DNA of 64,000 bases, from the NCBI GenBank assembly GCA_021234155.1, contig JAJEKV010000035.1, positions 7,065,891 to 7,129,890 of the forward strand, written 5' to 3'. The notes beneath the pieces are model-generated. The model was not told the DNA's origin. It saw nothing but the letters and a program-made list of their open reading frames with translations, and did no database searches. Below are positions 19,126 through 63,733 of the stretch, piece by piece. Source of the stretch: Isoetes taiwanensis (lineage: Eukaryota > Streptophyta > Lycopodiopsida > Isoetales > Isoetaceae). Within the stretch, counting starts at the first letter, position 1. Every line of letters starts with the position of its first letter. The position numbers and the translations under genes are program-made.

Positions 19126-19157
19126 AACCATCATTCAATTAAATTGGGATTATGTCT
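19126..19157 (+). repeat. left terminal inverted repeat of the large transposon
   Basis: These 32 bases, beginning AACCATCATTCAATT and ending GGGATTATGTCT, are a perfect inverse of 63,698-63,729. AATA (19,122-19,125) precedes them, matching AATA after the right repeat at 63,730-63,733. Confidence 0.8.
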
Positions 19158-20145
19158 ATTCCAAAATCGCGCCGTATAAGCTATTTATTGACCATTATAT
19201 TGAATTAACCACACTTTTGCACTGAGTTCATTTTCGGGCTAGGAAGATGCATTTTATGTTGAAATGCAAGGGCATCCAAATATTCGGTCCAAATGACCCA
19301 TATTATGAAAGAATGTTGGCAATATAAAAAGTAGGAAATTGCTTATTAATTCGTACAATCACCGGCGACAACGAAATCTAAACATTGAAATTGTAGTGTT
19401 TTCTGAATAAATAACAGCAAACAAAGTTGCTTCTGAGCGAGAGATTTTTCAAAGGGTCAAATGTGGCGTGGCGATTTTATTCCCATAAATAGCGTATTAT
19501 AGTGGAACATAAACTTTAAAACTAATCCAGAATCATCGTCGGCCGGCCGGTATTTGCGGCGTCTTTGAGATCCTTTTCGATCATGAACAAACCATGCTCA
19601 CGGATTCCATATAAGATGGATTACAACATCAAAGGGATCGGGATAAAGCGGGCCGGGATTCATAACAGCGACATCAAGCCATCCACGAAGTTCTATTTCT
19701 AGCTTCGCGGCACTGCCGGAGAGGTCTGCGTGGTTCATCTGGCGGTAATAGAATGTGCCATAATAACAAGCGGCGGAAGCGGCCGATGGTTTGCCAATTT
19801 CATGCATGCGTATTTATAGACACCTAAATTATTGGCCGGTATATACATACAAATTATTGCAAGTATAGCAAACCATACCGCGTAATATAAAAAAAGAACA
19901 ATACGTTACCGAGAACCAATAATCTTTGATATAAGAACACAATATATATTCGAAAAGAGTTTGGTGTAAAGTATATTTCATATTCAAAACTTTTTGGAAA
20001 GTGTATTTCACGTATACATATATATATATATATCAAAAAGTTCCCTTTCTAGAAACGCGATCTTCTCTAGGTCCTGTCAATTTCCCTGTCCAGATTAAGT
20101 TCTTGGGTATAGTGTTTGTATCTCTTGACCTTTTTTTCACGTAGC
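19158..20145. other. left subterminal region of the transposon
   Basis: About 1 kb without a gene lies between the terminal repeat and the stop of the minus-strand gene. A TA dinucleotide run is at 20,020-20,033. It serves as 3' flank and probably the terminator of the FCP1-like gene. Confidence 0.45.
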
Positions 20146-23100
20146 TATTTCGTGCAAGATCTTTGACAAAGCGAAGCGAGGAAGTCATCTTTGTCAAAAT
20201 CCTCGGGATGATAGGATGGTGGATTTAGTGGTTAGTGGTGATTGAAGCAACACTTCAAAGGCGTCATCATCAACTATAATGATGTCTTCCTTCTCTGAGC
20301 ATGAAAGTCATCCATCATGTCGCTCAAGCATTTCACAAATATTTTTTTTACACAGTAGGATCCTTTGGGTTATTGAATGACTTACATTTGCTCACGATCC
20401 CAAGCGGATGCCCAATCTCTATGTAACTTCGGGAACTACTCTCAAAACTTCACGTATATTTCTATTCTCCATCGGCGACCAAATTGCTGCTTGAAATAAA
20501 AAGAAAGCTTGGTCTAACATCTCCTTCCGGATCTGACGGTGGATATACCCATTTAATTATATGTCTCAAATGGTTTATGTGCATACCATGATAAAGGAAA
20601 TTGTGCTTTAGGTAGCGTTTTGCGAGCACTCCATTCAAATCGAACACCAGGAATTTTGGAGGAAGCTGGATTAGATGCGTAATAATAAAGCACACACTTG
20701 TGAGACAAGGAAAAAAAAATTGAAATGGCGGCTTGGCGATTTTCAATCTGTTGGAATAATTGAAATCGGCGCTGGCGCGATTTTCAATCTGTTGGAATAA
20801 TTGAAATCGGCGCTGGCCGATTTTTCATTCTGTTTGAATAACATACCTTTACGGTTCTGTTCAACATCCGCAATGATGAGCTTACTCTCGGTTGTCTTGA
20901 TTACGCGAGGAAGTGTCGACCACATCATTAGTGTTTGAACTATGGTTGATACTTCATTACTCTTTATGCTAACATTTCGAGCTTTCGAATCCAGCTTTGT
21001 ATCATCTAGGATTTTGTCTTCTTCGTTTGCGTTACCTACATCCACTTCTGTCGGATTTTCCAATGTGATTGGAATGATAGGCACGCTCTCGGCCGCATAG
21101 TTAAGCTGTTGCTTGTCGATATTCTTCTTTATGCCCTCTAGGTGCTTTCTCATTTCTTCCCGCTCTGCAGCCAGATCTGCAGGTAAGTTGGACTTAGAGC
21201 TGGAAGCTTTATTTTTTGCACTACCTAGCGGACCCCTAGGTGCCACCTCTAGCACTTTCTCGAAAAAAATATCGAGGAAGTCCTTGGCTTGACCATCAGA
21301 GACCACACTTTGGCATTTCCTAGCTAGCTTCAGAGCTTCCCGCCCGACATAACCTCCAACATGAAACTCCCAACCGTAGACTCTAAAAGGCGAAAGGCTT
21401 CAATCGAGAAAAACTTCGAAAAGGGCCAAAGAAAACCCGTACTTATTCAGCCTCCCCTTATCTTGTAGTCGGTAGCTCATACTTGATTGGTGAATTAAGG
21501 GCCGAGGTCGACCAGTTTTCTTCTTCCTCTTCCTCTTCCTCTTAGTCCGGTCCACATCCACATCTGCGGTCCCTTTCCCTTTGTCTTACGCCAATTGGAT
21601 TCGACATAAAAACATTCTTCAATAGGGGTTCATCTAGGCCGATAGCTTAGCGCCAAGCAATCTTCTCACCTTCGGTTTCCCCTTGAGTCTTTCATATTCT
21701 TTATCATCCATAATGGCTATCATAAGGACTAGCACATGTGAGATCTTACTTTCGGTTACTAAACTCACTATCTTTGTTTTCATCTATCATTCTTTGCTTG
21801 CCTCATCACTTTAATGCATTCGACATCATTTCGCGGCAGACTAGTGCATATCGCGTGGAAATGTCGGGTGGCAAAGCTATCCGCGATAGTATAATGCATC
21901 TCGGTCGTCAAACCAGCTTGCATGTGTTGAAGAAGGTCTTTGTAATCATCACATGTCCATCTCGTTACCCGCGGCTATCAAGAACAAATAGAGTGATGTC
22001 GGTTGGCCCTTCACCCACCTCGGCATGGCACACTTATAACCGGTGGACACCTTATAGAAAAAGGGGACTTCGTCTCTTGCCGTCTTCTTCACCAAAGCAA
22101 CTTTTCTTTTTTAGGTCGGGGCCCTTAACTTTCGTGTGAATCCCCTTAAGAGTTGCCACATTCTTAGCCTTTTCTTTGCTTCACAAAATCTTTTGACCAA
22201 AATACATATTTCTTAATGTCATCATTAGATCGTTGTACTTTTGCATTAAGCCTATCTCGATAACATCATGTCTCACGAGAGCCTTTGCGGTTCTTCACCA
22301 GCGGCTTTTTTCGGGGACTTTCATATTTTTTATCGATTAGCATGCATCTTGAAAGATGTCAAGTGCTTTCTTTGCGGGCGTTTTCTTGTAGATAACTTCC
22401 TTTTCGATGCAACTATCTAGAAACGAGATTAATTCTGCATCATCAATCCTTGTGCCTTTCTCATTTACGTGATACCTATATCAAAATAGGCGTATCTTGC
22501 GGAGGAAACACGCCATCTGAATCGGCAACTTCTTTTTCGAATAAAGTCCCAAAATTAGTTCCACTTTTCCCATACACAGTCGGAAAAAAAACAATCTTGC
22601 GGGCATCCTTTGGCACCGTTTGCTCTTACGTGCCCGGCTTGTGCATCCCCTTTTTCTTCTTTGATCTAGTGCCCTTGTTCTTGTCTGTATTATGGTTTGG
22701 CACGGTGTCCTTTCTAGTAATTTGAATTGACACTCTTAGATTGCCCTTATGCGGTCGGCATTGGTTTTCCATATTCGATCCATTGGTTCTGGCGTGCATA
22801 AAGCTGCTCCACATCTGATTTTGCAAAATATGGGCGTTAGATAAAAAAAAATAAGCAGTCGTGAAAGTAACAATATAAAAGCAGCGCCCGGTAGCGTTTT
22901 AGTTAATCAACGTATTTACAAAAAGCGGCGCTGGCGCGATTTCTTCATGATGAAAATTGGCGCCCGGTGGCGTTTCTTGTAAATCCGTCACACAAATAAC
23001 AACATAAAAAGCGCGCCCGGTGGCGTTTTGCTAATCGCGTATTTAGAAAATGCGCGACCATATGAAGAAATCGGCGCCCGGTGGCGTTTCTTGTAAATCG

Positions 23101-24907
23101 TGATTAAGCGAATCGTGATTAGCGAAACGCTATGTGTGGAACATAAAATACCTTTTGTATAGGAATGTCTTTCCCATGTCATCATTCGATGGCGCTGATT
23201 TGGCTAATTACTGGCTGGCTGTTGTGGAGCCAGCGAGGAATCGGCAATTTCGGTTGAATCTGATCTATAGAATAAGCGATTTCCGGTTTTTGTGCTTGGT
23301 GATCAAAACCTTCTGCGCCTCCAGCGAATCTTTGGCCATCTATTATCATGAAGTGAATATCGAGGTTGCCGGTTAAATCTTCAAGTTTATTCCATATCAA
23401 CACCTTCTTAGTCTTCATATCAAAAGGCACCACATCTGCTTAGGCATTGGCTTTTTGTCACGGGTTTTCTATCATCTTTGTTGACTATTTCCATTCGCGT
23501 CTTTGCTTGTCAAATCTTCTGGCGACAAACATAGCCTTCGTGGACTGAAAAGCACAATCGACATGGATAGGATCGCGTGAAGCTAAGGCCCGATGGATAC
23601 TTGTCGACATATTTCTTGAGTTTGCTCATGGCCTCTAAGCTGTCTCGCCTTGTCATCATCACTAGTCATATCGTAATGCCTAGAGCGTCACGGTGTTTCC
23701 ACGGCTCTAGAACTTGCATCTTCCTTCTCTTTTTAAAGCTTGTAGGTCTGGACTAGGCGGCGGACCTTATCTTGATTGCTCTTCTCCACGGTGAGAGACC
23801 TTCACATATTTTTTTTGGTGTCAATAGATCACCACGACCAATAAATTTGAAGAGGTTATCTGCGGCCTCATCCGTTCTTAGGGCGTCTCTTTAAAGGAAC
23901 TAACCTTTGCGATAATTTAACTTCTTCAATACTTTTTATTTTTCGACCCGCTTCAAGTAATACGGAACGGTAAGAATCGTCTGTTCTTCGCATGTGATCG
24001 AGAATACCTTGTTTCTTCATTTGATCTGTTTCCTTAACTCTAGACATGAAAATCAGATCTGTCTTTCCGCTAGTCTTGAAGATCTCCACATACCATTCGA
24101 GCCCTCACGGTAGATCTTCTTACGGACATGGAGGCTCTACGAGCCTTCATTATTTCGATTCGTATCGTCAATGGTCTAGCGTGTGCCAAATCTGCAAGCC
24201 CGATACATCTTCATCCGTTCTTGGTTTTAAATGCGGATGTCCACGGACCTGCTTGCGAGCTTTGCTTTTCTTTTCACATTTTTAGAAGATCACGAAAGTT
24301 ACAATCATGTGGTGAGTAATGAAATCGCCCGGCCTTTTTCATAGGCATATTACTTTCAAAAACATAAATTGTACCGCGGGGAAAGTAGCGAGACAACCAA
24401 AACCACTCATAATTATAAATCGGCGGCCGTGGCGTTCTTAAGAGGGGACCTCTGAGACACTTCTCTTTTATAAGAGACATACTAGGCTACAAAAAGACTT
24501 GTCAAAAGAGCTGGAGAATCTGAGTAAAAGACTTACCACGGTCTACATTATACAAAATGGAGAATTGTTCCAACAAAAACATATCGAGATAAAGGGAGAA
24601 GATTATAACAAAAACACACAAAAACAAGGTAGTAAAAGCGTTAGAAATGACCGCGAAACAATATGAAAGGTAGACAATACGAGAGACAACATACCACGAG
24701 AAAATACCGGGTTGAAAAACATCCTAGAAACCTAACAATAAAAGGGACCGCCGAAATCAATTACAAAACAAAAAGCGGATCAATTACGAGCTTGTTGGAT
24801 TAGTGCTTTACGCTTGTTCGGCACCTCGGGCTTAGGATTTGTGCTTTGGGCTGTAAGCCCACCTCTACCAGCGCCTCGGCCGCGGCGGCGAATCCTCTAG
24901 GCGCCAT
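20146..24907 (-). CDS. multi-exon transposon gene with C-terminal FCP1/NIF (HAD) phosphatase-like domain
   Basis: The minus-strand start is at 24,907 (MAPRGFAAA here, MASRGCGGRG in the right copy) with a probable donor GTAATTG. Further exons include EIFKTSGKTDLIFMSRVKE (24,089-24,030), VLIWNKLEDLTGNLDIHFMI, KIVFFPTVYGKSGTNFGTLF, and a long exon ending at 20,847 with KDFLDIFFEKVLEVAPRG and a KHLEGIKKNIDKQQ helix. A consensus donor (GTATGT, 20,846-20,841) and acceptor (at 20,666) bound a 181-base intron. The last exon opens LPPKFLVFDLNGVL and later has IIIVDDDAFEVLL and FDKDDFLASL, the order of FCP1/NIF domains, with a stop at 20,146. DLNG replaces the catalytic DxD, so activity is doubtful. 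The N-terminal part is unrecognised. Exon joins are approximate because of indels. Confidence 0.6.
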
Positions 24908-26490
24908 AGAGCGCAAGTCGCGGATAGTATGAGGCCCAGGGTTTTGGTTTAAACTTATATGTATCGTTCATAATCTAGGCCGTCCAGTTTACAACCGTAA
25001 ATTCAAATTCGGCGTCCTTTTAAATTTATACGCCTTAATTAACCGCCCGTCCGCTCATTTACAAATTTAAATTGTGTTTTTCTTTTTAGTGCAATTTCAA
25101 GATAACAATTAATTATTAATTTCAAAAGCATATGTGGCAATCTACTACCACCTAATCGGCCACCTACTATCGGGCGCCAAGATCATTCCTAGTATCGAGC
25201 GCCCAAGAACAATCGACTATCGGGCGCCCAAGATCCGTTCGATCCCATTCGATCGATCGAGCGCCTTCAATCCATTCGATCGAGCGCCTTCAATTCCCAT
25301 TCGATGTCTGGCTGAACTATGGTGAATTCGAATGCATTCTCTTGTTCTCAATTTTTTAGTCCTCTATTTTTTACAATGCATTACGGTTCTTTATCGATTA
25401 ATAGGGAGAAGAATGCTATCTTTTAACGACAAACTTGAAGCCTAGTAGGATTGTGTAAAATCGAAGATTTGAATCAAGTTCTATGTGTCATGGTGTTCCT
25501 CTTGGAAAGCTTGTTTACGTAAGATTTCTATTCTAAAGCGCAATTATGAAGATGAGGCTCTTCCAAAGAAGACATCCGTTGGCGTCTGATTGGTGGCGTG
25601 GGCACATTTGTAGCATGGCCAAAAAGCGTCGAAAAAGGTATGTATATTTGGATATTCAAAAAAAAATATATCATATCATCTGCGTGATGTTGTGAACTTT
25701 GAATTACTTGATGGTCTTTAGCCAGATCTTATCAACCCCATGAAACTACACATTAATGAAAATATGTAGTTTCTTGGGGTTCAGTCCTCTTGGGCTGGAG
25801 GGCATCCGCGAGGATTCAATATTTTCGACATTACATATAAAAAAAAATAAACTAATGACGAAAAAGTATAGTGCAAAATTGCGCCCGGTAGCGGTTTGTA
25901 TTCATATTCAAAAAGTTATGTACATTTCTTCTTACGCAAAAAATCGCCCGGTAGCGAATTCTTTCTATCTCTACAATATGTCGAGGCGAGGCCCACTTCA
26001 TCGCCCAATCCATAAAAAGTCCCACGAACCACCACGATATGGCCGGGATCCTCATCTTTCACGAGGATGTCGAGTCTCAAACCCAGTGTTGTATCGATCC
26101 ACGATACTATAAATCAAATCCTTGTACTTATTTGTTGGCATGAGCCTTACTAAGAGCATGAGGAGTCGATATGTCCATAGATCGCGATGGAAGTGTACCC
26201 ATGGCCCACGATCTGAGGCTGTCTAATGGATTCTCCAACTCTCTTTGAGCGTTTTGAGCGGCACACTCAAGTAATATCTTGTCTGAGGGTCGAGTTGATG
26301 GTGGATCGGGGGAACTAGAACCCGGCCGGTGTATTTGAACCAGCCGGTGTCCATGCATAAGGAAAATCCATGGCACTAGAGCGAGAAACAAAGTAATTAA
26401 ACAAGATCTATTTCACCGCAGCGCTGGCGCGATTTGTATAAAACCGTATGAAATTGAAATGCCAAACTAAAAAAACGGCGCTGGCGATTT
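20725..26490. repeat. dispersed GCGCCYGGTAGCG-type motif, at least 13 copies
   Basis: One orientation, GCGCCCGGTRGCG, is at 22,884, 22,960, 23,013, 23,074, 25,881 and (shortened) 25,945. The other, GCGCTGGCGC, is at 20,769, 20,808, 22,928, 26,421 and 26,476. Weaker copies are near 20,735 and 24,421. Most have AAATCG or CGATTT beside them, forming short imperfect palindromes. They lie only in introns of the minus-strand gene or between the two genes, never in recognised coding sequence. Candidates for a role are transposase-binding or intron-borne regulatory sites. The true core may be CCTGG/CCAGG, as both copies are noisy exactly there. Confidence 0.6.
25734..25781. repeat. 17-bp-stem hairpin
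   Basis: The arms AACCCCATGAAACTACA and TGTAGTTTCTTGGGGTT pair over 17 bases with one mismatch around a 14-base loop. It is identical at 58,264-58,311 although nearby sequence is noisy. It could be a small MITE or an RNA hairpin. Confidence 0.6.
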
Positions 26491-26699
26491 GATTAACCTA
26501 GTGGAAAACGTAACCCAAAAATAGAAATCAAAGCGCGATTTCTCCCATTCAACATATTATTCTAACAAAATGCATAATGCGAGAATCACGAGAATCACGA
26601 AATTCAAAATATAAAAACCCGGTTAGAAGCGGATATATAATAATAATACTCCTTGTTTAGTTCAATATTTAGTTCATTGTTTTAGTTCATTATTTAGAA

Positions 26700-26970
26700 G
26701 CGATAGAGGAAAGAGCTAGTGAAGATCTATGATCTATGATCTATGATCTAGATCATAGAAACAAGATCATAGATCGAATATGAAATAGAAACGAGATAGA
26801 GGAAGAAGCTAGTGAAATAGAATAACTTCATTATTTAAGATCATTAATTAGAGCAGGATAGAGGAAAGAGCTAGTGAAATAGAGGAAGAGCTAGTGAAAT
26901 AGAATAACTTCATTATTTTAGATCATTAATTAGAGCGGATAGAGGAAGAGCTAGTGAAATAGAATAAGAG
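26700..26970. repeat. tandem repeat with AGGAAGAGCTAGTGAAATAG
   Basis: A unit of roughly 79 bases (AGGAAGAGCTAGTGAAATAG, then AATAACTTCATTATTT, GATCATTAATTAGAG) occurs about three times, with one extra 20-base sub-repeat. A palindromic ATGATCTATGATCT block precedes it (26,727-26,775). It is matched at 59,229-59,495. Confidence 0.75.
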
Positions 26971-27710
26971 CGGAGGGAATCGGCAAGATCCGCGGATAAT
27001 TCAAGGTAGGGCACTTTAGGACTGATGCATGTAAAAGTAAATAACATGCTTTATGGAAAATAACTACTTTATGTAAATAGCAGATGAAATACTAACCGAG
27101 AAACCTTAAGAAGTGATTGAGAAGCCTTAAGAAAGCCGAGAAAAAGCAATAGCAGCTAATTTGGAGAAAAAAGCAATAGCGGTAGAAAGCTTTAACACAA
27201 AAAACCAAAGTTATTCAAAGTCGGAGAGATTGTAGAGAGCCGAAAAGCCAAAAACCCGAGAAAACCTTGTATAGAGCCTACAAACCTTGTATAGAACCTT
27301 GTATTGAGCGAAAAAGCATATAGAAGCCGAAAAGCATATAGAAGCGGAGTTTAAAAGCGGGAAAAGCGAGAAAAAGCGAGGTTTATAGAAGCCGAAAGTC
27401 GAAAGCAATTAGAAGAAAAAGCCGAGAGAAAGCGGGCGAGATTGAAGCAAAGCGAGATTGAAGTCGAAAAAAGCGCCCGAGAAAAAGCCGATTGCATCGA
27501 GAGATGCTCGAAAAGCGCCCGAGAAAAAGCGATTAGCGCCCGGAAGAGAAGATCGAAAGAGGCGAAGAAAAGTTGGAAAGTTGGATCGGAAGAGATCGAA
27601 AAGTTGGAAAAGGGATTAAAGCTGGAAATAATAAGCTGCTTTAAAAAATTAGTGCAGCGCCATAATAAGCTTAATGCGAAAAAATTTATTACAAGGGTTA
27701 TAAGTTATAA

Positions 27711-27790
27711 GATTTATAAGGTTAATAGTTTTAAGGTTAATAGATTTAAGGTTAATAGTTTTAAGGTTAATAGTTTTAAGGTTTATAAGT
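27711..27790. repeat. 15-base AT-rich minisatellite
   Basis: AAGGTTAATAGTTTT-type units are repeated about five times with single-base variants. It lies 260 bases upstream of the transposase-like gene and is also at 60,206-60,285. Confidence 0.75.
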
Positions 27791-28050
27791 TAAGGTTAAT
27801 ATTTTTAAGTTCATAAATAAGGTTATAAGTTTAAAAGTTTATGAATTTGAATTTAGAAGTTGTTTCTAAGGTTACAACATTTAAGGTTATTATAAGTTAA
27901 TATATTATAGGTTCACTTATTATTATTATAGATTAAGTTATTATAGGTTATTAAGGTTATTATTAAAGTTAACTTTCATTTAAGAACATGTGTTAGGGAG
28001 ATGTTATTTGGATATGCTAACTTACTATAGGTTTTATGCATTTTAGGTCA

Positions 28051-29876
28051 ATGGCATGCAAAATGCTAAATCCCCAAGGCCCCAACTAATGAAGATGACA
28101 AAGATGATGGGAAAAGAAAGGAAAAGACCAGAAATGAAAAGGATGAAGATGACAAAGATGATGGCAAAGGAAAGGAAAAGACCTCAAATGAAAAGGATGA
28201 TGCCAAAGGAAAGGAAATTGTACTTTATACTGGATTGATTGGAAAAACAAGAAGGTCAAGATCACGCATGCATGCAGAGAAGCGATGGGAGAAGGGATTA
28301 TTGTTCTAGCGAGATCCTATCAATGCGATTGAATGATGAAAAGATTAGGGGAGGGCGGGTTAGGTGTGGCAATCTCAAAATTATATGACAATTGGAAGGA
28401 AAAGGGTTCGGGCAAACAAGAATGCCTAGCTTGTGTGAAGCAACTAGAGGTTCCAACTATTGTTGCATGGCCTAGGGGCGATATTCAAGCTGGAGGGAAC
28501 TACCGTTTCCTATAGATGTAGAACCATTGTCAACAATGTTCACCACAGTGTAGCAAGAGGCCACTTCCAACTTTCAAACATTATCCCACCAAAAGATGCA
28601 AGTCAGTTATGATTGTTCTCACGAAGCTATGATGAAGGTTAGAGGAGGTGAATGTTGTTGGGCTTCTTGTGTTAGAATGTTCACAATAGAGGAGTTGGTG
28701 GGAGCAAGAGCTACATATCCCGGGAACATAAGTGTGATAGCGGGGAGGAATTTCATGTACACCATATTTGGCTATGCAATTCGGGATGAAAGATCAAAGA
28801 AGAAAAAGATTCCCATTGAATGGAAAGTGGATATGTTCAAAAGCATGGATGGCTATACATGGAATTCCAACCTCTTCTTGGCACAAGCGGCAAAAGAGAC
28901 ATGAAAATGGTAGTAAAATTGCATTGCATGGGAACAACGGCACAGTAAGGCCTACCTCAGAACTATAGCTGCAAAGGAAATATTTGAAAGATATGTGGTT
29001 TCAATCACGAGAAAACATGCCACATAAGAGTAAGAAGGATGAGCAGGGTAGAGTTATTGTTGAAAGAGATTGCCATCCCATTGTACCCGGAAAAGAGCAT
29101 ATTAGAGGAAATAAATGCATTGCTTGAGAACTTGGAGTGGCCTCTATATCCCATTAGTTTTAGTAGGCTATGGAATAAGCATTTCAAGCATGTGACCATA
29201 GCAACTTCAAACAACTTTGCCAAGTGCAATTTATGTGCTAAGCTGAAGGAGACACTAGATAAGGCTGTGCAACCAAGTCTAAGGGCAAAGATAAGGGAAC
29301 ATATGAAGGACCATATGGCAGGATCAACTATCATGTAGATCAACTTATTGGATGTGGAGGACCTTATCGCAATGGAACCTAATAACTATCTATGTATTAT
29401 ACATGATAAAATGGACCAACGAAGACTTGTCTTCCACAATTCAAAATACATTCCTAAGTCATGTGGAAGATCATACCCTTTGCTTGATTTCAATGGCTGG
29501 GGCAATATTGCATGGGCGATCTCAGACCTATTATGGCCATTTCAGGTTTAGAGTTGTGGAGTGATGGTCCAGATTTTCACATTAGGAGTATCATGAGGTG
29601 TTTAGAAACTATGAGAAGGGTTACAATGGTCACCCTCTGAGGATCCCTCTGACTAGCCGGGCACTACATAGTGCATTGTTGGATGGAACCCCTAATAGTA
29701 TTGAAAAGTTTAGCAAGGCAAGATTTAGGAGGAATGGACCTAATGAACATGTTGGAGCTTCAACATCTACGTGCTAAACCTCGAGATGCCTTGAGAAAGT
29801 TCCTCTTGCAACTAGATAATTGTCTTTGGTCAAAATAAGAATAGGTGGATGTTTTTCTTTCCTATCCTACTTAACA
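28051..29876 (+). pseudogene. DUF7869-like putative transposase, truncated by the duplication junction
   Basis: This is the left copy of the plus-strand transposon gene. It keeps the charged N-terminal repeat zone (EDDKDDGK-type units, 28,089-28,215), KSMDGYTWNS / SKAWMAIHGIPTSS (28,828-28,880), the CNLCAKLKE cysteine pair (29,224 onward), HDKMDQRR (about 29,403-29,426) and LDN followed by QNKN (29,812-29,840). The sequence leaves homology at 29,876, about 36 bases past the NKN codons, losing the last 350 or so residues. Frameshifts are frequent. It cannot make a full protein. Confidence 0.65.
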
Positions 29877-33842: not shown

Positions 33843-34117
33843 GGGTGAAAGCATGTTAGGGCCTACATAAAAAATTACCAAAAAGGTACTTTTCTGTGTA
33901 CTTCTGTGCAAGTACATAATTGTATTTTAAAGTATCTAAACTACAAGATTGACTAAAAGAAATTGTGTTATGTTCAAGAGTAGTAGTACATACATGTTGT
34001 AAGGTACTTTGTGATGTCAAGAAGATGTTAAGAACTCAAATATATCATCATCTTTGACTACCCAGAGTATTTTCCAGGTAGTTTCCAAAACATGTAGGCC
34101 CTAACATGCTCTTACCC
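33843..34117. mobile_element. GGGTRAAAGCATG MITE in reverse transcriptase, right copy, with 4-bp duplication
   Basis: This is the 275-bp counterpart of 1,216-1,489. GGCA stands directly before (33,839-33,842) and after (34,118-34,121). Counting only one GGCA, the two flanking reverse transcriptase segments abut in the canonical reading frame, which confirms both the ends and the length of the target duplication. Confidence 0.85.
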
Positions 34118-34121
34118 GGCA

Positions 34122-35010
34122 CTATGAGTTCACAGTTATGCCCTTTGGATTGTCTAATGCGCCAGCCACATTCATGAGGTTAATGAACGACGTCTTCCGC
34201 GAATTTTTAGATTCCTTCATCATAGTCTTCTTCGACGATATCTTGGTGTACAGCAAGTCTGTGGAGGAGCACGCCAAACATTTGAGGAAGGTGCTTGAAA
34301 AGTTAAGAAGGCATCAACTTTTTATGGGTTATCGGCGCCACTTCAAGAACGGAAAGAGTGGAGTACTTGGGGCACGGATCACGCAGGCAAGGCATTTCCA
34401 ATGCACTCCCGAAAGATCGGCCGCGGATCGGGGCTGGCGGCACCTAAGAACACGCATGAAGTCGAGCTTCCTAGGCCTAGCGTGCTATTATAGAAGATTT
34501 GTGAAGAATTTTGCCAAGGTAGCAGCCATTAATCTGGATCTCACAAAAGGTGGAAGATAAAAGATTGGGCATCTCATTGGCAAAACAAGGCCCAAAAAGC
34601 ATTTGAGACACTAAAGGAAGCTTTGACGATTAAATAGCTTTGGTCTTGCCAGATCCGACCAAAGATAAGCTCAGAGTAACAGATGTTAGCGTGATGATGA
34701 CAGCGCAAATTCCTCTCATGCAGAGGAAAGAGTAGTGGCCTATGATTCCAAGAAGTTGAACGACGCCGAAAGCAAATACCCAACGCACGCATCAAGAGCT
34801 CCCCGCCATAGTAAGGGCTTTAAGAATTTGGAGGCATTATCTAAGAAGAAAATTCCAGCTAGACATGATCATCAAAGCCTTCAATACATATTTACGCAGC
34901 CGCCTTAATTTGAGGCAAAGGAGATGGATGGAATTCTTGGAAGAATATGACTTTGAGATAAGTTATAAGCCGTGGAAGCTCAACGGGTTGCGATGCCCTT
35001 TCCGTGAAGC
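34122..35010 (+). pseudogene. second half of reverse transcriptase and RNase H, right copy
   Basis: It opens with MPFGLSNAPATFMRLMNDVF and has the catalytic FDD at 34,231-34,239, better preserved than on the left. RNase H remnants (VVAYDSKKLN, RRWMEFLEEYDFEISY) reach about 34,980. Frame breaks occur around 34,330, 34,440 and 34,560. Confidence 0.8.
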
Positions 35011-51680: not shown

Positions 51681-51684
51681 AATA

Positions 51685-51716
51685 AACCATCATTCAATTA
51701 AATTGGGATTATGTCT
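51685..51716 (+). repeat. left terminal inverted repeat, complete transposon
   Basis: It starts AACCATCATTCAATT and is identical to 19,126-19,157. Confidence 0.85.
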
Positions 51717-52672
51717 ATTCCAAAATCGCGCCGTATAAGCTATTTATTTATTGACCATTATATTGAATTAACCACACTTTTGCACCGAAGTTCATTTTCG
51801 GCTAGGAAGATGCATTTTATGTTGAAATGCAAGGGCATCCAAATATTCGGTCCAAATGACCCATATTATGAAAGAATGTTGGCAATATAAAAAGTAGGAA
51901 ATTGCTTATTAATTCGTACAATCACCGACGACAACGAAATCTAAACATTGAAATTGTAGTTTTTTACGATAAATAACAAAGCCAGCAAGTTGCTACGTAA
52001 CGTAGATTTTCATGGGTCAAATCGCTGCGGACGCCCCCCATAAATAACGATTATAGTGGAACATAAACTTTAAAAACTAATCCGAATCATCGCCGACAAA
52101 GCCGCAGCAGCGGTGCCGAGATCCTTTCGATCATGAACAAACCATGCTCGATTCCATATAAGATGGATTACAACATCAAAGGGATCGATAGAAGCGATCG
52201 ATTCATAGCAACGACATCGCCAGTCCCGGTTCTATTTCTAGCTCATGCACCGCAGAGGTCCGCATGTGGGTCATCATCCGCGTAATAGAATGTGCCATAA
52301 TAACAAGCGTATATGGAAGCCGGGTTTTGGTTTGCCAATTTCATGCATACGATTTATAGACACCTAAATTATTGACTCGTATATACATACAAATTATTGC
52401 AAGTATAGCAAACCATACACGTAATATAAAAAAGAACAATACGCATAACGTAACCAATAATGCCGATATAAGAACACAATATATATTCGAAAGAGTTTGG
52501 TGTAAAGTATATTTCATATTCAAAACTTTTGGAAAGTGTATTTCCCTGATACATATATATATATATCAAAAAGTTCCCTTTCTAGAACGATCTTCTAGGT
52601 CCCCCAATTTCCCCCGTCCGATTAAGTTAAGGGTATAGTGTTTGTATCTTTCGACCTTTTTTCCCCGTAGAG

Positions 52673-55600
52673 CTATTTCGTGGCAAGATGCCGACAAAAC
52701 GGGCAGAAGTCATCTTTGTCAAAAAATCCTCGATGATAGGATGGTGGATTTAGTGATCGCGGACTGATTGAAGCAACACTTCAAGGCCATCATCAACTAT
52801 AATGATGTCTTCCTTCTCCCCAACGCCAAGTCATCCATCATGTCGCCAAGCATTTCACAAATATTTTTTTTACCTCAGAGGATCCTTTTGGGTTATTGAA
52901 TGACTTACATTTGCTCGATCCCAAACAGATGCCCAATCTCTATGTAACTCAGAACTACTCTCAAAACTTCCTCAGATATTTCTATTCTCCATCGACGACC
53001 AAATTGCACAAATCTAAATAAAAAGAAAGCTTGGTCTAACATCTCCTTCAGATAATGGCCGCATATACCCATTTCAGATATATGTCTCAAATGGTTTATG
53101 TGCATACCATGATAAAGGAAATTGTGCTTTAGGTAACGCTTTTGCGTAGCACTCCATTCAAATCGAACACCGTAATTTTGGAGGAAACCGATTAGGTCTC
53201 AAATAATAAAGCACACACTTGTGAGACAAGGAAAAGAAAATTGAAATCGCTTTGGCGCCATTTTCAATTGTTTGAATAATTGAAATCGCCCCGGCGCCGA
53301 TTTTCAATTCCGCTTGAATAATTGAAATCGCTACCGGGCGCCGATTTTCATTTCGCTTGAATAACATACCTTTCGTTTCCCCGCTCAACATCCGCAATGA
53401 TGAGCTTACTCTCGGCCCGCCTTCTGGCCCGCCGTAAGTGTCACCACATCACTTAGTGTTTGAACTATGGTTGATACTTCATTACTTTTATGCTAACCTC
53501 GACTCGAAGCTTTCCGAATCCAATCGTATCATCTAGGATTTTGTCTTCTTCGCTTATGCTACCTACATCCACTTCGCCGGATTTTCCAATGTGATTGAAT
53601 GATAGGCACGCCTCTACCGCATAGTTAAGCCGCTGTTTGTCGATATTCTTCTTTATGCCCTCTAGGTGCTTTCTCATTTTTTCCCGCCTCGCAGCCGTGA
53701 TCCGTAAGTCGGACTTAGAGCTGGAAGCTTTATTTTTTGCACTACCTAGCGGACCCCTAGGTGCCACCTCTAGCACTTTCTCTAAAAAATATCGAGGAAG
53801 TCCTTGGCTTGACCATCGAGACCACACTTTGGCATTTCCTAGCTAGCTTCGTGAGCTTCCCGCCCGACATAACCTCCAACATGAAACTCCCAACACGTAG
53901 ACTCTAAAGGGCGTAAGGCTTCAATCAAAAAAACCTCGAAAGGGCCAAAGAAAACCCGTACTTATTTAGCCTCCCCTTTATGCCGCCAAGAGCTCATACT
54001 TGATTGGTGAATTAAGGATGTGGTCGAATCCAGCTTTTTCTTCTTCCTCTTCCTCTTCCTCTTCGGCCCGTGTCCACATCCACATCTGCAGCCCCTTTCC
54101 CTTTGTCTTCGCAAATTGATTCGACATAAAAACATTCTTCAATAGGGGTTCATCTAGCCGATAGCACCGCCAAGCAATCTTCTCACCTTCCGGTTTCCCC
54201 TTGAGTCTTTCATATTCTTTATCATCCATAATGGCTATCATAAGGACTAGCACATGTGAGATCTTACTTTCGGTACTAAACTCACTATCTTTGTTTTCAT
54301 CTATCATTACCGCTTTTTGCCTCATCACTTTAATGCATTCGACATCATTTGCAGCAGCCTAGTGCATATGCGTAGGAAATGCCTGAGTGGCAAACCGTCA
54401 CGATATAGTATAATGCATCTCGCCGCCAAACCACCGCATGTGTTGAAGAAGGTGCTGAAATCATCCCGTGGTCCATCTCGTACCACGGCTATCAAGAACA
54501 AATAGAGTGATGTCGGTTGGCCCTTCACCCACCTCCTCCTGCATGGCACACTTATAACCGCTGACACCCTTATAGAAAAAAGGAGACTCGCTTCATCACC
54601 GCCTTCTTCACCAAAGCAACTTTTCTTTTTAGGTCGACGCGAACTTTCGTGGTGAATCCCCTTAAGAGTTGCCACATTCTTCGCCTTTTGTCGCTTCACA
54701 CAAAATCTTTTGACCAAAATACATATTTCTTAATGTCATCATTAGATACGCTTGTACTTTTGCATTAAGCCTATCTCTCGATAACATCATGTCTCCCCGA
54801 GAGCCTTTGCGCTTCTTCACCAACAAATTTTTTTTCAGACTTTCATATTTTTTATCGATTCGCATGCATCTTCGAAAGATGTCAAGTGCTTTGTCGCAGA
54901 CGCTTTTCTTTGTAGATAACTTCCTTTCGATGCAACTATCTAGAAATCAGAGATTAATTCCCCGTGATCATCCAATCCTTTGTGCCTTTCTCATTTCTCG
55001 TGATACCTATATCAAAAATAGACGATCTTTATGGAGGAAACCCGCCATACGACCGCAACTTCTTCCGAATAGGCGCCCCAAAATTCGCTCCACTTTTCCC
55101 ATACCGGTCAAGAAAAAAAACAATCTTGCAGCATCCTTTGGCACCGCTTTGCTCTTCTCGTGCCGCCTTGTGCATCCCCTTTTTTCTTCTTTGATCTAGT
55201 GCCCTTGTTCTTGTCCTCAGATATGGTTTGGCACGCTGTCCTTTCTAGTAATTTGAATTCGCACTCTTAGATTGCCCTTTGTCCGGTCGGGCATTGGTTT
55301 TCCATATTCGATCCATTGGTTACGAAAGCGTCGCGAATCGCCCACATACCGACCGCAAAATATGGGCCGTTAGATAAAAAAATAAACAAAGGTCGTGAAA
55401 GTAATAATATAAAACGCCAGCAGCGCTGTTAATCACGATTTACAAGAAATGCGCCGGGCGCGATTTCTTCATGATGAAGAATTCCGCCAGCGCCGCTTTG
55501 TAAATCCGCCACACAAATAACAACATAAAACCAGCAGCGCTTTTTGCTAATCACGATGAGAAAATCGCAGCCATATGAAGAAATCGCCCAGCGCCGCTTT

Positions 55601-57430
55601 TTGTAAATACGCGATTAGCGAAAAACGCCACCGGGCGCGATTAGCTTAACGCTATGTGTGGAACATAAAATACCTTTTGTATAGGAATGTCTTTCCCATG
55701 TCATTCAAGAGCGCCACGATTTCGCTAATTTCGCCCGCCGCTAGGAGCCACCGAGGAATCGGCAATTTCGACCAATACGCCTATAGAATAACCGATTTCC
55801 AGCTTTTTGTGCTTGATCGATCAAAACCTTCAAGGCCTCCAATCAATGCCGGCCATCTATTATCATGAAGTGAATATCGAGGTTGCCGCTTAAATCTTCA
55901 AGTTTATTCCATATCAACACCTTCTTCGCCTTCATATCAAAAGGCACCACATCCGCCGCAAGATTGGCACCTCGCCCCGGTTTTCTATCATGCCGTTGAC
56001 TATTTCCATTGCGTCGCTTGTCAAATCTTCTCACGACAAACATAGCCTTCGTGGACCTCAAAAGCCCGTCGACATGGATAGGATGCGGAAGCTAAGGCCC
56101 AAAGGATACTTGTCGCGATATTTTGAGTTTGCTCATGGCCTCTAACCGCCTCGCCTTTGTCATCATCACTAGTCATATCCGTAATGCCTAGAACGCCCGG
56201 TGTTTCCCGCTCTAGAACTTGCATCTTCCTTCTTTTTAAAGCTTGTAGGTACGCATCAGCCGACGGCCTTTGTAATCGATTGCTCTTCTCACAAATTGAG
56301 AGACCTTCACATATTTTTTTTTGGTGTCAATAGATCACCACCGACCAGCCAAATTTGAAGAGGTTATCTCATGGCCTCATCCGCTTCTTAGGGCGCCTTT
56401 TTAAAGGAACTAGCACCGCAGTAATTTAACTTCTTCAATACTTTTTATTTTTCCTCACCCGCTTCAAGTAATATGGAACAAGAAGAATCGCCCCGTTTCT
56501 TCGCATGTGATCGTAATACCTTGTTTCTTCATTTGATCTGCTTCCTTAACTCTAGACATGAAAATCGATCTGCTTTTTTCCGCTAGTCTTGAAGATCTCC
56601 ACATACCATTCGTGAGCCCTCTCGTAGATCTTCTTCGACATGGAGGCTCTACCCCGAGCCTTCATTATTTCGGGTCAGATCATCAATGGTCACAACGCGG
56701 CCAAATCGCAAATCGATACATCTTCATCCGTTTGGTTTTTTCTCAGGCAGATGTCCCCGACCTCGCAAGCAGTTTTGCTTTTCTTTTCACATTTTTAGAA
56801 GATCCCGAAAGTTACAATCATGTGGTGAGTAATGAAATCGCACCGAAGCCGCCAAGCTTTCATAGACGCCTTTACTTTCAAAAACATAAATTGTACACAG
56901 TGGAAAGTAGCGTAGACAACCAAAACCACTCATAATTATAAATCGCTACCGAAGCCGTTTTTAAGAGGGGACCTACGTACACTTCTCTTTTATAAGAGAC
57001 ATACTAGGCTACAAAAAAGACTTGTCAAAAGAACTGAGAATACGTAAAAGACTTACACGGTCCTACATTATACAAAATGGAGAATTGTTCCAACAAAAAC
57101 ATATCTGAGTAAAGGAGAAGATTATAACAAAAACACACAAAACAAGGTAGTAAAAGCAAGAGAAAATGACACGTAAAACAATATGAAAGGTAGACAATAC
57201 ACAGAGACACGATACACGTAAAAAATACACAGTTGAAAAACATCCTAGAAACCTAACAATAAAAGGGACACGTAAATCAATTACAAAACAAAAACAGATC
57301 AATTACCCGAGGCGCTTTGTTGATTCGCGCTTTCTTGCTTGTTCAAGCCAGCCTCCGTGCTTGGGATTTGTGCTTTAGTGTCGCCCACCTCTACCAAATA
57401 CCCTCTACCGCCGCATCCTCTAGACGCCAT
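52673..57430 (-). CDS. FCP1/NIF-like multi-exon transposon gene, right copy
   Basis: The start is at 57,430 (MASRGCGGRGYLVEVG) and the first donor at about 57,305 (GTAATTG). A long central exon encodes FLEKVLEVAPRGPLGSAKNK and the EGIKKNIDKQ helix (53,827-53,620). A Glu run (EEEEEEEEEK, about 54,057) comes from a CTTCCT repeat. The donor GTATGT is conserved at about 53,365-53,370. The FCP1-like exon (DLNG region about 53,160; VDD region about 52,790) is frameshifted here, so the left copy is the better guide. It is probably the transposon's second function, perhaps regulatory. Confidence 0.5.
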
Positions 57431-60400
57431 AGAACCGCAAGTGCGGATAGTATGAGATCGGGTTTTGGTTTAAACTTATATGTATGCGCTCATAATCTAG
57501 GCCGCCGATTTACAGCCGTCAGAATTCAAATTCGCCCTTTTTTAAATTTATACCGCTTTAATTAACCGCCTCGGCCCCGCCATTTACAAATTTAAATTGT
57601 GTTTTTCTTTTAGTGCAATTTCAAGATAACAATTAATTATTAATTTCAAGAAACGATATGTGGCAATCTACTACCACCTAATCGCCACCTACTATCGAGA
57701 GCCTCCAAGATCATTCCTAGTATCGAGCTTCCCAAGAACAATCGACTATCGAGAGCGCCTAAGATCCGCTCGATCCCATTCGATCGATCGAGCCGCCTTC
57801 AATCCATTCGATCGAGCCGCCTTCAATTCCCATTCGATGTCCGCTGAACTATGGTGAATTCAATGCATTCTCTTGTTCTCAATTTTTCGCCCTCTATTTT
57901 TACAATGCATTCGGTTCTTTATCGCTGTCGGAGAAGAATGCTATCTTTAACAAAGAAACTTGAAGCCGAGTAGGATTGTGTAAAATCAAGATTTGAATCC
58001 AAGTTCTATGTGTCATGGTGTTCCTCTTGGAAACAAGCCAGAAGATTTCTATTCTAAACCGCAATTATGAAGATGAGGCTCTTCCAAGAAGACATCCCTA
58101 AGTGGCGATATACAGCTTGGAAAGCGTGGGCACATTTGTAGCATGGCCAAAAGAACGCCCTAAAAGGTATGTATATTTGGATATTCAAAAAAAAAAAAAG
58201 AATATATCATATCATCTCAAGATGTTGTGAACTTTGAATTTTGATATCTTTAGTCAGTTTATCAACCCCATGAAACTACACATTAATGAAAATATGTAGT
58301 TTCTTGGGGTTGGTCATACCGGGCCGGAGGGCATCACAGATTCAATGTTTTCGACATTGCATATAAAAAAAAAATAAAACTAATGACGTAAAAGTATAGT
58401 GCAAATTGCGCCAGCGCCGAAGTTTGTATTCATATTCCAAAAAAGTTATGTACATTTCTTCTTCTCGCAAAAAATGCGCCAGCGCCAATTCTTTCTATCT
58501 CTACAATATGTCGACAGCCCACTTCATCCGCCTAATCCCGCAAGAAGTCCCACCTGAACCACCCTCGATATGACAGATCCTCATCTTTCCCGAGGATGTC
58601 GAAGTCTCCAAACCGTAGTGTTGTATCGATCCCCGATACTATAAATCAAATCCTTGTACTTATTTGTTGGCATGAGCCTTACTAAGAGCATGAGGAGTCC
58701 GATATGTCCATAGATGCGATGGAAGTGTACCCATGGCCCCCGATACAGCCGCCTAATGGATTCTCCAACTCTCTTTGAACGCTTTGAACAAAGACACTCA
58801 AGTAATATCTTGTACAGTGGTCCGTGAGTTGATGGTCGCCCAGTGGAACTAGAACCAGCCAAAGGTATTTGAACCAGCCAAGGTCCATGCATAAGGAAAA
58901 TCCATGGCACTAGAACGAGAGAAAAGTAATTAGCACAGATCTATTTCACACGCCACCGGGCGCGATTTGTATAGAGCCGTATGAAATTGAAATGCCAACT
59001 AAAACGCTACCGGGCGGCGATTTGATTAACCTAGTGGAAAACGTAAACCCAAAAATAGAAATGCGCCAAGCGCGATTTCTCCCATTCCAACATATTATTC
59101 TAACAAAATGCATAATGCGTAATGCGTAATGCAAATTCAAAATATAAAGCCGCTTAGAGCGTATATATATAATAATAATACTCCTTGTTTAGTTCAATAT
59201 TTAGTTCATTGTTTTAGTTCATTATTTAGAGCGTATAGAGGAAGAGCTAGTGAAGATCTATGATCTATGATCTATGATCTAGATCATAGAGCAAGATCAT
59301 AGATCGATATGAAATAGAAACGATAGAGGAAGAGCTAGTGAAATAGAATAACTTCATTATTTAAGATCATTAATTAGAACAGATAGAGGAAGAGCTAGTG
59401 AAATAGAGGAAGAGCTAGTGAAATAGAATAACTTCATTATTTTAGATCATTAATTAGAACAGATAGAGGAAGAGCTAGTGAAATAGAATAAGAGCAGAGG
59501 AATCGGCAAGATCACAGATAATTCAAGGTAGGGCACTTTAGGACCGATGCATGTAAAAGTAAATAACATGCTTTATGGAAAATAACTACTTTATGTAAAT
59601 AACAAGAATACTAACCCGAAAACCTTAAGAAGTGATTCGAGAAGCCTTAAGAAGCCGAGAAAAAGCAATAGCAGCCTAATTTGGAGAAAAAGCAATAGCA
59701 AAATGAGAAGCTTTAACACAAAAAACCAAAGTTATTCAAAGTCAGAGAGATTGTAGAGAGCCGAAAAGCCAAAAAAACCAGAAAACCTTGTATAGAGCCT
59801 ACAAACCTTGTATAGAACCTTGTATTGAGCCGAAAAAGCATATAGAAGCCGAAAAGCATATAGAAGCCGAGTTTAAAGCAGAAAAGCAGAAAAGCCGAGT
59901 TTATAGAAGCCGAAAAGTCGAGAAGCAATTAGAAGAGAAGCAGAGAAGCGCATTTAGATTGAAGCAAACGAGATTGAAGTCGAGAAAAGCCGTAAAAGCC
60001 GATTGCATGCAGATGCTCGAAGCCGTAAAAGCCGATTGCCCAAAGAGAAGATCGAAAAGAGAGACGTAAAGTTGGAAAGTTGGATCGGAAAGAGATCGAA
60101 AAAGTTGGAAAGGGATTGTAAACCGAAATAATAACCGCTTTTAAAATTGCATCATCACGCCATAATAACCGGCCAAAAATTTATTACAAGGGTTATAAGT
60201 TATAAGATTTATAAGGTTAATAGTTTTAAGGTTAATAGATTTAAGGTTAATAGTTTTAAGGTTAATAGTTTTAAGGTTTATAAGTTAAGGTTAATATTTT
60301 TAAGTTCATAAATAAGGTTATAAGTTTAAAAGTTTATGAATTTGAATTTAGAAGTTGTTTCTAAGGTTACAACATTTAAGGTTATTATAAGTTAATATAT

Positions 60401-60543
60401 TATAGGTTCACTTATTATTATTATAGATTAAGTTATTATAGGTTATTAAGGTTATTATTAAAGTTAACTTTCATTTAAGAACATGTTAGGGAGATGTTAT
60501 TTGATATGCTAACTTACTATAGGTTTTTATGCATTTTAGGTCA
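57431..60543. promoter_or_regulatory. divergent intergenic region, right copy
   Basis: It has the same content as 24,908-28,050: CCATTCGATCGAGC repeats (57,720-57,840), hairpin 58,264-58,311, GC-rich motifs (CGCTACCGGGCG near 59,004, CGCCACCGGGCGC near 58,953), the 79-base tandem repeat (59,229-59,495) and the AT minisatellite (60,206-60,285). Confidence 0.45.
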
Positions 60544-63477
60544 ATGGCATGCAAAATGCTAAATCCCCAAGGCCCCAACTAATGAAGATGACAAAGATGA
60601 TGGGAAAAGAAAGGAAAAGACCAGAAATGAAAAGGATGAAGATGACAAAGATGATGGCAAAGGAAAGGAAAAGACCTCAAATGAAAAGGATGATGCCAAA
60701 GGAAAGGAAATTGTACTTTATACTCGGCCGATTGGAAAAACAAGAAGGTCAAGATCCCGCATGCATGCAAATGAGAGGCAAGAGGGAGAAGGGATTATTG
60801 TTCTAGCAGATCCTATCAATGCAAAGGAATGATGAAAGATTAGGGGAGGACAAAGTTAGGTGTGGCAATCTCAAAATTATATGACAATTGGAAGGAAAAG
60901 GGTTCAGTGCAAACAAGAATGCCTAGCTTGTGTGAAGCAACTAGAGGTTCCAACTATTGTTGCATGGCCTAGGGACAAGATTCAACCGAGGGGAACTACA
61001 CGCTTCCTATAGATGTAGAACCATTGTCAACAATGTTCACACAAAGTAGCAAGAGGCCACTTCCAACTTTCAAACATTATCCCACCAAAAGATGCAAGTC
61101 GATTATGATTGTTCTCCGGCTATGATGAAGGTTAGAGGAGGTGAATGTTGTTGGGCTTCTTGTGTTAGAATGTTCACAATAGAGGAGTTGGTGGGAGCAA
61201 GAGCTACATATCGTGAACATAAGTGTGATAGCAGAGGAATTTCATGTACACCATATTTGGCTATGCAATTCAGATGAAAGATCAAAGAAGAAAAGATTCC
61301 CATTGAATGGAAAGTGGATATGTTCAAAAGCATGGATGGCTATACATGGAATTCCAACCTCTTCTTGGCAATAACCGCAAAAAGAGACATGAAAATGGTA
61401 GTAAAATTGCATTGCATGGGAACACCGGCCCGGTAAGGCCTACCTCAAGAACTATAGCCGCAAAGGAAATATTTGAAAGATATGTGGATTTCAATGCGTA
61501 AAACATGCCACATAAGAGTAAGAAGGATGAACAGGGTAGAGTTATTGTTGAAAAGAGATTGCCATCCCATTGTACCCGTAAGAGCATATTAGAGGAAATA
61601 AATGCATTGCTTCGAACTTGAGTGGCCTCTATATCCCAAAATTCCCCGCTTTTAGTAGGCTATGGAATAAGCATTTCAAGCATGTGACCATAGCAACTTC
61701 AAACAACTTTGCCAAGTGCAATTTATGTGCTAAGTCAAGGAGACACTAGATAAGACCGTGGCAACCAAGTCTAAGGGCAAAGATAAGGGAACATATGAAG
61801 GACCATATGACGATCAACTATCATGTAGATCAACTTATTGGATGTGGAGGACCTTATCCGCAATGGAACCTAATAACTATCTATGTATTATACATGATAA
61901 AATGGACCAACAGTAAGACTTGTCTTCCACAATTCAAGTACATTCCTAAGTCATGTGGAAGATCATACCCTTTGCAGATTTCAATGATCGGGGCAATATT
62001 GCATGGGCGCCTCGCACCTATTATGGCCATTTCAGTTTAGAGTTGTGGAGTGATGGTCCAGATTTTCACATTGGGAGTATCATGAGGTGTTTAAGAAACT
62101 ATGAGAAGGGTTACAATGGTCACCTACAGATCCTACAGCTAGCCGTGCACTACATAGTGCATTGTTGGATGGAACCCCTAATAGTATTGAAAAGTTTAGC
62201 AAGGCAAGATTTAGGAGGAATGGACCTAATGAACATGTTGGAGCTTCAACATCTCGCGGCTAAACCCTCGAGATCCGCCCAAAAGTTCCTCTTGCAACTA
62301 GATAATTGTGCCGGTCAAAATAAGAACAGTGGATGTTTTCTTTCCTATCCTACTTAACAGTACCGTGGGTGTTTTTGAAAGAGTCAATTTGGGGTTCCTA
62401 ATGCCCTGACATACTCATGAGGATGTGGATGCATTGTTTGGAAAATATAGTCATGTATTGAGACAAAGCAGACAGCTACCAACTTTCCCGTGCTATTGGA
62501 AATATTTCATGGATGTACAAATCCATCTCCTATAGGATCTATCATAGAAGAAGTGCCCGATTGGAAGAGTTTTGTGGATGGTTATGCTCTCGACATGGAA
62601 GGTCATTCTAGACCTCTTCAATTCACTTTTTGGGTGAGAGAAGGGATTCCAATCATGCAATGGAAAATGAGACCTTCAGAGGAGAAGAAGGAGAGGTGGG
62701 GCAGAAATTTGGCGCAGGGATGCAAATGGCAAGCCTATGATACCTCCTGGTCAACCAAAAGCTCTAAAACCAACTGAAGAAGTCAAGCAATTGGGATTGA
62801 CTAAGGATGGCATCAATGACTACATCAAGCATTGGCAAACTAATTCGATGACACAAATCGTGCATTGATAGATTATTGGAAGAAGGTGATCAACTTGTTG
62901 GATGAGGTAGACACATCCTCCTCAAGAGCTGAAAAGAAGGGTGGTTCCCTAAAAAGTAAGTGGAAAACATTAGCTGGTGCTGACGAAGATGATGGTACCA
63001 TTAGTAGCATTGTGAAGGCATATGCTCCTCCTCAATCTGATAAACACTATGTTGGTCCTAAGAAGGATAGGCCAAAATATCTAGGCATGGATTCTTATGA
63101 ACCTTCTACTGACGTGGAGTGCAACCAATTTGTAGTAGTAAAACCAGCAGATCTAGAGACCTATCCAGTGTGGTTGGGATGGACTATCTCGGATATTTGC
63201 AAAGAAGAAGGTGATGTTAACTTCAATAAGGTGCGGCGTGGAATGGTGGTGTCCAAAGACATCGGTTGAGTAATGTCACCGATAAAGAAAGATATTCCAT
63301 TGTTGGACAAAGAGGTGGAGGAGAAATCCAAGTGATCCCGATCTTTGGCTAGACATTGAAACCGTATTGTACTGGTGGACTCCAAAAACTATTCCTAGTA
63401 AAACAGCGAGAGTTACAATACCTCAGGATGTAAGGAATAAGGTTCTCATATCCTTGGGGATGCTAGTGGAAAAATGA
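60544..63477 (+). CDS. DUF7869-like putative transposase, full-length locus
   Basis: Blocks in order: a charged low-complexity N-terminus with EDDKDDGK and KEKTSNEKDD repeats (60,590-60,720); a CCWASCVRMFTIEELVGARA segment (61,147-61,207); WICSKAWMAIHGIPTSS (about 61,315-61,362), like the VCxKAFLxILGI block of the family; HFKHVTIATSNNFAKCNLCA with a C-x2-C pair (61,670-61,730); HDKMDQ (61,893-61,910), the D-x-M-D-Q block; LDNCAGQNKN (62,298-62,327); DWKSFVDGYA (about 62,560-62,590); and a C-terminus with ETYPVWLGWTISDICKEE and VLYWWTPKTIPSKTARV. The stop is at 63,475-63,477. The two Asp blocks fit an RNase H-fold DDE nuclease (inference). Frame breaks occur, many at CAG-like sites. The DUF7869 assignment is from memory of motifs. 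Confidence 0.7.
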
Positions 63478-63508
63478 AAAACAATTACTATGTATCTTTT
63501 CTACAGTT

Positions 63509-63514
63509 AATAAA
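63509..63514 (+). terminator. polyadenylation signal of the transposase-like gene
   Basis: AATAAA stands 32 bases after the stop codon, a plausible plant near-upstream element. Confidence 0.5.
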
Positions 63515-63625
63515 AGTTGTGTACTACTTGAGTTCCATGATATATGATTTTGTAATTTGAAGTTAAGGTGTGAGTTTATATTCCCGTGTGTGATTATATG
63601 TTAACGTCTATTCTAGTCTAAGGGC

Positions 63626-63672
63626 AACAAAGTTACTAAAAAAGTGAATTTAACAAAGTTACTAAAAAAGTG
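63626..63672. repeat. subterminal 21-base direct repeat
   Basis: AACAAAGTTACTAAAAAAGTG occurs twice (63,626-63,646 and 63,652-63,672), perfect, with a 26-base period, immediately inside the right terminal repeat. It may be a transposase-binding array. Confidence 0.7.
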
Positions 63673-63697
63673 CAATATAAAATTTATCCCAAAATTA

Positions 63698-63729
63698 AGA
63701 CATAATCCCAATTTAATTGAATGATGGTT
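63698..63729 (-). repeat. right terminal inverted repeat, complete transposon
   Basis: It is a perfect inverse of 51,685-51,716, followed by AATA at 63,730-63,733. Confidence 0.85.
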
Positions 63730-63733
63730 AATA

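Follow-up and report, generated by a model that had tools for sequence, protein, structure and literature searches.

The 64,000-nucleotide stretch of DNA from the quillwort Isoetes taiwanensis analysed here (the window) contains what is very probably a complete copy of a DNA transposon that is numerous in the genome and is moved by a DUF7869-family DDD transposase. The element is 12,045 bp long and is bounded by 32-bp ends that are exact reverse complements of each other, with AATA adjoining both of them. An earlier note on this DNA had described such ends, exact inverses lying 12 kb apart and flanked by AATA, and comparison of the sequences bears this out. The limits of the element are as follows.

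51681-51684, no strand: left target site duplication, AATA, read in the sequence.
51685-51716, plus strand: left terminal inverted repeat, 32 bp, exact inverse of the right end.
63698-63729, minus strand: right terminal inverted repeat, 32 bp, exact inverse of the left end.
63730-63733, no strand: right target site duplication, AATA, read in the sequence.

When up to three mismatches are allowed, the 32-mer end is found at three places in the window, compared with none in 100 shuffles. A search of the source assembly (1,658,258,908 bases in 1,110 contigs), at the same tolerance, finds it at 1,718 forward and 1,709 reverse places, while the reversed pattern, used as a control, is not found at all. 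Pairs of ends were drawn from 100 listed places, all of which had no mismatches. Among these, neighbours in plus-then-minus order are spaced 12.0-14.0 kb in 17 cases, 18-27.5 kb in six, and more than 100 kb in two; there are five minus-then-plus neighbours, spaced 29-139 kb, and the remaining ends are unpaired within that listing. Thus, further pairs at a spacing like that in the window, for which the earlier note had proposed to look, do exist in the form of the 17 shorter pairs. The flanks of 20 of the 23 opposed pairs up to 27.5 kb were then compared for target duplications. An exact 4-bp duplication is present in 18 of the 20, and a duplication of 5-8 bp in none, so that the length seen in the window also holds elsewhere; among mispaired flanks, a 4-bp match occurs in 4 of 380. 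The three long pairs among the 20 (18.2, 20.2, and 25.6 kb) all have the 4-bp duplication, as expected of elements bearing internal insertions. Together with that of the window, the 19 duplications are AT-rich (0.74) and have no fixed motif. Paired inverted ends in many copies and a constant 4-bp target duplication are the marks of a class II transposon, and by both of them the unit is confirmed as a DNA transposon present in many copies.

The window also holds a second left end, which belongs to the following feature.

19126-29876, plus strand: second copy of the same insertion, its right end cut off at a tandem-duplication joint (shared left flank, direct repeat).

Two left ends within the window would be expected if there had been two separate transposition events, but this explanation can be practically dismissed, given that the left flank is identical at both ends and that the copies share 32.7 kb arranged in tandem around a joint of 16 bp. 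Positions 6-29876 of the window recur in direct orientation as 32657-62359, with 88.6% identity. When flanking sequence is added, the repeat is seen to begin at L032:5180 and at window position 29893, giving a unit of about 32.7 kb; L032:5180-10000 belongs to the same tandem duplication as the two window segments. Over 30.7 kb, the duplicated copies differ by 1,714 mismatches (845 transitions and 869 transversions) and by 1,428 gap openings, mostly of 1 bp. Such indel-rich differences look like the pattern of unpolished long-read sequence, and consequently the reading frames discussed below would be broken by assembly error or by decay, perhaps with introns as well. According to the available part of its description, the published assembly comprises 1658.30 Mb in 204 scaffolds and 909 contigs, with gaps filled by long reads (PMC8566536). 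The 32.7-kb duplication is possibly an unmerged contig overlap, that is, an assembly artefact; a genuine tandem duplication is also possible. Under either origin, the element at 51685 and the copy at 19126 represent one insertion and not two independent ones, because the left flank of the latter is identical and it lies inside the direct repeat of the window.

The plus strand near the right end of the element carries the gene that likely encodes its transposase.

60563-63269, plus strand: putative DUF7869 transposase gene (PF25273 match), frame-broken, with approximate limits; acidic motifs near 61893-61910, 62298-62327, and 62410-62430.

A hand-stitched reading of 711 amino acids matches the DUF7869 profile (PF25273) at 9e-29, with 100.9 bits against a curated cut-off of 26. 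The earlier note had presumed that the transposase-type motifs of this protein belong to Pfam DUF7869; the HDKMDQ and LDNCAGQNKN blocks it named are indeed present, in the first two of the acidic motifs, and the kinship is upheld by the profile match of the stitched reading. In a scan of 10 unstitched window frames, two match DUF7869 below the curated cut-off (0.0019 and 0.00018; 18.3 and 21.6 bits), and no other family falls under 0.1. A relative in a public contig, L037, reads as a single frame of 947 amino acids and matches DUF7869 over the cut-off (1.6e-42). When L037 is used in a tblastn search of the raw window, which is independent of the stitching, both copies of the element match in several frames and pieces, located from residue 208 to residue 847 of L037, with a best E value of 6e-12. 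Three aspartates, at HDKMD/DGMD, LDN/IDG, and GHTHxxxD, are invariant in L037, in L001 (an element of this genome described below), in the hand-stitched window protein, and in L038; one glutamate is likewise invariant. The invariance of the three aspartates in four sequences suggests that the DUF7869 protein is a DDD transposase, and by our own assignment these residues would be its catalytic triad. In the mechanism that we propose, the protein would bind the ends of the element, cut by means of an RNase H-like core that bears the three acidic residues, and join the ends to staggered cuts 4 bp apart.

A search of PDB sequences found no relative of the DUF7869 protein, and scans of viral contigs yielded none. 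Among prokaryote contigs, the stitched window query matched nothing; with alignment A1 as the query, there are three relatives, L037, L038, and L039, in bins labelled cyanobacterial or Bacteroidetes, and these contigs may be eukaryotic contaminants or may reflect a genuine transfer. The literature search returned no paper naming DUF7869; a Repbase entry under another name is possible.

Within the genome, a DUF7869 profile search scored the best 150 of 9,902 candidates, and all 150 exceed the cut-off. In the L022 group, 19 of 25 loci extend to one right terminus ending ACTTTGTT, with differing flanks. The elements L001 and L002 each measure 9.5 kb; their inverted ends match inexactly, and both of these two examined elements have a 4-bp duplication (GTAG and AACT). 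The ends seen in three families start with AAC when read inward. The DUF7869 match of L001 exceeds the curated cut-off, and on its opposite strand lies a DNA methylase (PF01555, 5.4e-15); its matches to NCBIfam models, some of which are adenine-specific, all score far below the respective cut-offs. A PF01555 profile search of the genome gives 150 matches, taken from the best 150 of 1,443 candidates. When the 150 listed DUF7869 places are compared with the 150 listed methylase places, 24 pairs are separated by 15 kb or less. Of these, 22 are divergent, and the numbers of pairs in eight shifted controls are 1, 1, 0, 0, 0, 1, 0, and 1. In or near DUF7869 elements, the methyltransferase genes carry the motifs FSGSGTT and DIPY/DLPY in L001, FSGSGTT in L086, and DLPY and FSGSGTT, in open frames, in L087. 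Judged from these sequences, the usual divergent partner in the other DUF7869 elements of the genome is apparently an N6/N4 DNA methyltransferase and not a phosphatase-like protein.

In the window, the partner region on the minus strand is of another kind.

52690-53170, minus strand: NIF/FCP1-like HAD domain (PF03031, stitched) with DLNGVL, IWSS, and IIVDD motifs, frame-broken, limits approximate.
53170-56400, minus strand: rest of the partner region, from a reading of frames, limits approximate; one or two genes, with a stretch at about 55843-56091 read as ParB/DGQHR-like.

A hand-stitched reading of 204 amino acids matches PF03031 at 7.2e-06 (26.2 bits; curated cut-off 21.8), and an unstitched frame of 92 amino acids from a further copy of the family, C290, matches it below that cut-off (0.0012, 19 bits). 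The domain is not seen in the unstitched frames of the window, including whole minus-strand frames with stops read as X. Thus, the divergent multi-exon FCP1/NIF-like gene proposed in the earlier note stands as regards its domain in the stitched reading and, weakly, in C290, but not in the window frames as they are. Its broader proposal, of a mobile unit behind DUF7869 with a phosphatase-like partner, holds in that the unit is mobile, DUF7869 is likely its transposase, and a phosphatase-like domain is present; such a partner is not the usual one, however, a methyltransferase gene standing there in other DUF7869 elements. HAD phosphatases carry DxD at the catalytic position where the window protein reads DLNG, and because of this substitution, a phosphatase activity of the protein is doubtful.

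A stretch of the C290 partner matches DndB (PF14072) at 0.0063, below the cut-off, and the window's own version of this stretch has no Pfam match. A stretch upstream of the L001 methylase was also read as ParB-like; its match to DUF6551 (0.03) is not significant, and NCBIfam supports no ParB-like domain in the partner of either the window or L001. A ParB-like relation between the two partner types was tried as well, and 53 of 300 shuffles reach its score, which gives it no support. By-eye methyltransferase resemblances in the window's partner were dropped because 101 of 300 shuffles score at least as high.

If the foregoing is put together, the opposite-strand gene would be an accessory, namely a NIF/FCP1-like protein in the window's family and an N6/N4 DNA methyltransferase in other DUF7869 elements. 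Perhaps it influences how the element or its ends are methylated or packaged in chromatin, a suggestion that we make tentatively. It could instead be a host sequence acquired by chance and without a role in transposition. In keeping with this, the window's partner is frame-broken, and NIF-like domains are common in the genome (151 matches, from the best 150 of 3,261 candidates); furthermore, at both of two weak NIF loci that were examined, the neighbour is another putative transposase, and the 15 kb retrieved there contains no DUF7869 match. Against a chance acquisition stands the recurrence, in 22 of the 24 close pairs, of this divergent layout with a methyltransferase, and we judge such an acquisition to be less likely than not. 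As to the two NIF loci themselves, by eye the other putative transposase (L082/L083, at C1040:7435500-7450500, and L084/L085) has SDGCSSQFK and HGKGEHDG motifs and no Pfam model over cut-off; a divergent NIF-like gene stands beside it at both loci, together with a RING-like gene at L082/L083.

Several observations weigh against a transposon moved by a DUF7869 transposase and served by an accessory gene. Two of the 20 end pairs (C284 and the C24 pair) lack a duplication, and the frames are broken in every copy read from the window's family, namely the two in the window and C290. The fold prediction for L037, from a four-row alignment, has a mean predicted local distance difference test score (pLDDT) of 35, too low for a fold to be read. 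In the L022 group, six of the 25 loci stop short of the shared right terminus, and at the left ends located for L022 and L012, no inverted repeat is seen. Finally, a methyltransferase sought in the window's partner was not found, and the scores for homology between this partner and the methyltransferase-type partner lie within the range of shuffles.

Other features of the window can be described briefly. Short GC-rich repeats such as CGCCACCGGGCGCGATT are dispersed inside the element (window positions 53325, 55443-55642, and 58950-59082), and a Ty3/gypsy-like reverse transcriptase frame is read by eye at 34105-34560. An Rfam search of the window gave no match.

With DUF7869 as the probable transposase, a family that has carried a placeholder name gains a probable function, one backed by element boundaries and target duplications. 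In addition, there would be land-plant DNA transposons that bear DNA methyltransferase genes of bacterial type in a repeated divergent layout, and these partners hint at elements that chemically mark DNA. A wider proposal is that DUF7869 defines a transposase group undescribed in print, whose lycophyte elements regularly bear their own N6-adenine/N4-cytosine methyltransferase on the opposite strand (or a NIF/FCP1-like protein in the window's high-copy family), with which the element, in the course of its life cycle, marks DNA or resets its own silencing; taken as a whole, we regard this as possible but short of an even chance. The quillwort source makes N4-methylcytosine and N6-methyladenine in lycophytes, as well as self-marking by transposons, directly testable. 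The literature search found no work joining ParB, an N6-adenine methyltransferase, and a transposase.

Among known systems, the closest by description are the Sola elements (Sola1-3). In the portions of the accounts available, Sola has a DDD transposase, 4-bp duplications, terminal inverted repeats of 11-1124 bp, and a size of mostly 2-9 kb with some elements longer than 15 kb, and it is found in the moss Physcomitrella (PMC10741241); Sola2 elements can bear captured Fanzor1 genes, and those of amoebozoa have AWWT targets (PMC3627910). The present element resembles them in its duplication length, terminal inverted repeats, apparent DDD pattern, size, seed-free plant host, and extra genes. It could therefore be an ordinary member of Sola, with DUF7869 being Pfam's placeholder name for a Sola-type transposase, and all of these shared features, including the capture of genes by Sola2, speak for this. 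Against it, AWWT is found in none of the 19 duplications of the window's family, nor is TTAA. NIF-like or DNA methyltransferase partners do not appear in what these sources give on Sola. The duplication length and the DDD pattern would fit the Sola superfamily, a likeness by description alone, not by sequence, so that the element is not filed under Sola here; the chances that it belongs there seem to us about evenly balanced. By profile match, the protein falls in DUF7869 (PF25273), whose cut-off is exceeded by L001, L037, and the stitched reading from the window; in Pfam, this name denotes a domain of unknown function. For the methyltransferase-bearing elements, the sole counterpart that the literature search returned is a study, available in part, of dinoflagellate and charophyte retrotransposons that carry cytosine methyltransferases (PMC5890265). 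These too are mobile elements bearing a gene for a DNA methyltransferase, and one such case comes from a relative of plants; however, they encode C5 methyltransferases, whereas the elements described here are DNA transposons with an enzyme that appears to be of the N6/N4 type.

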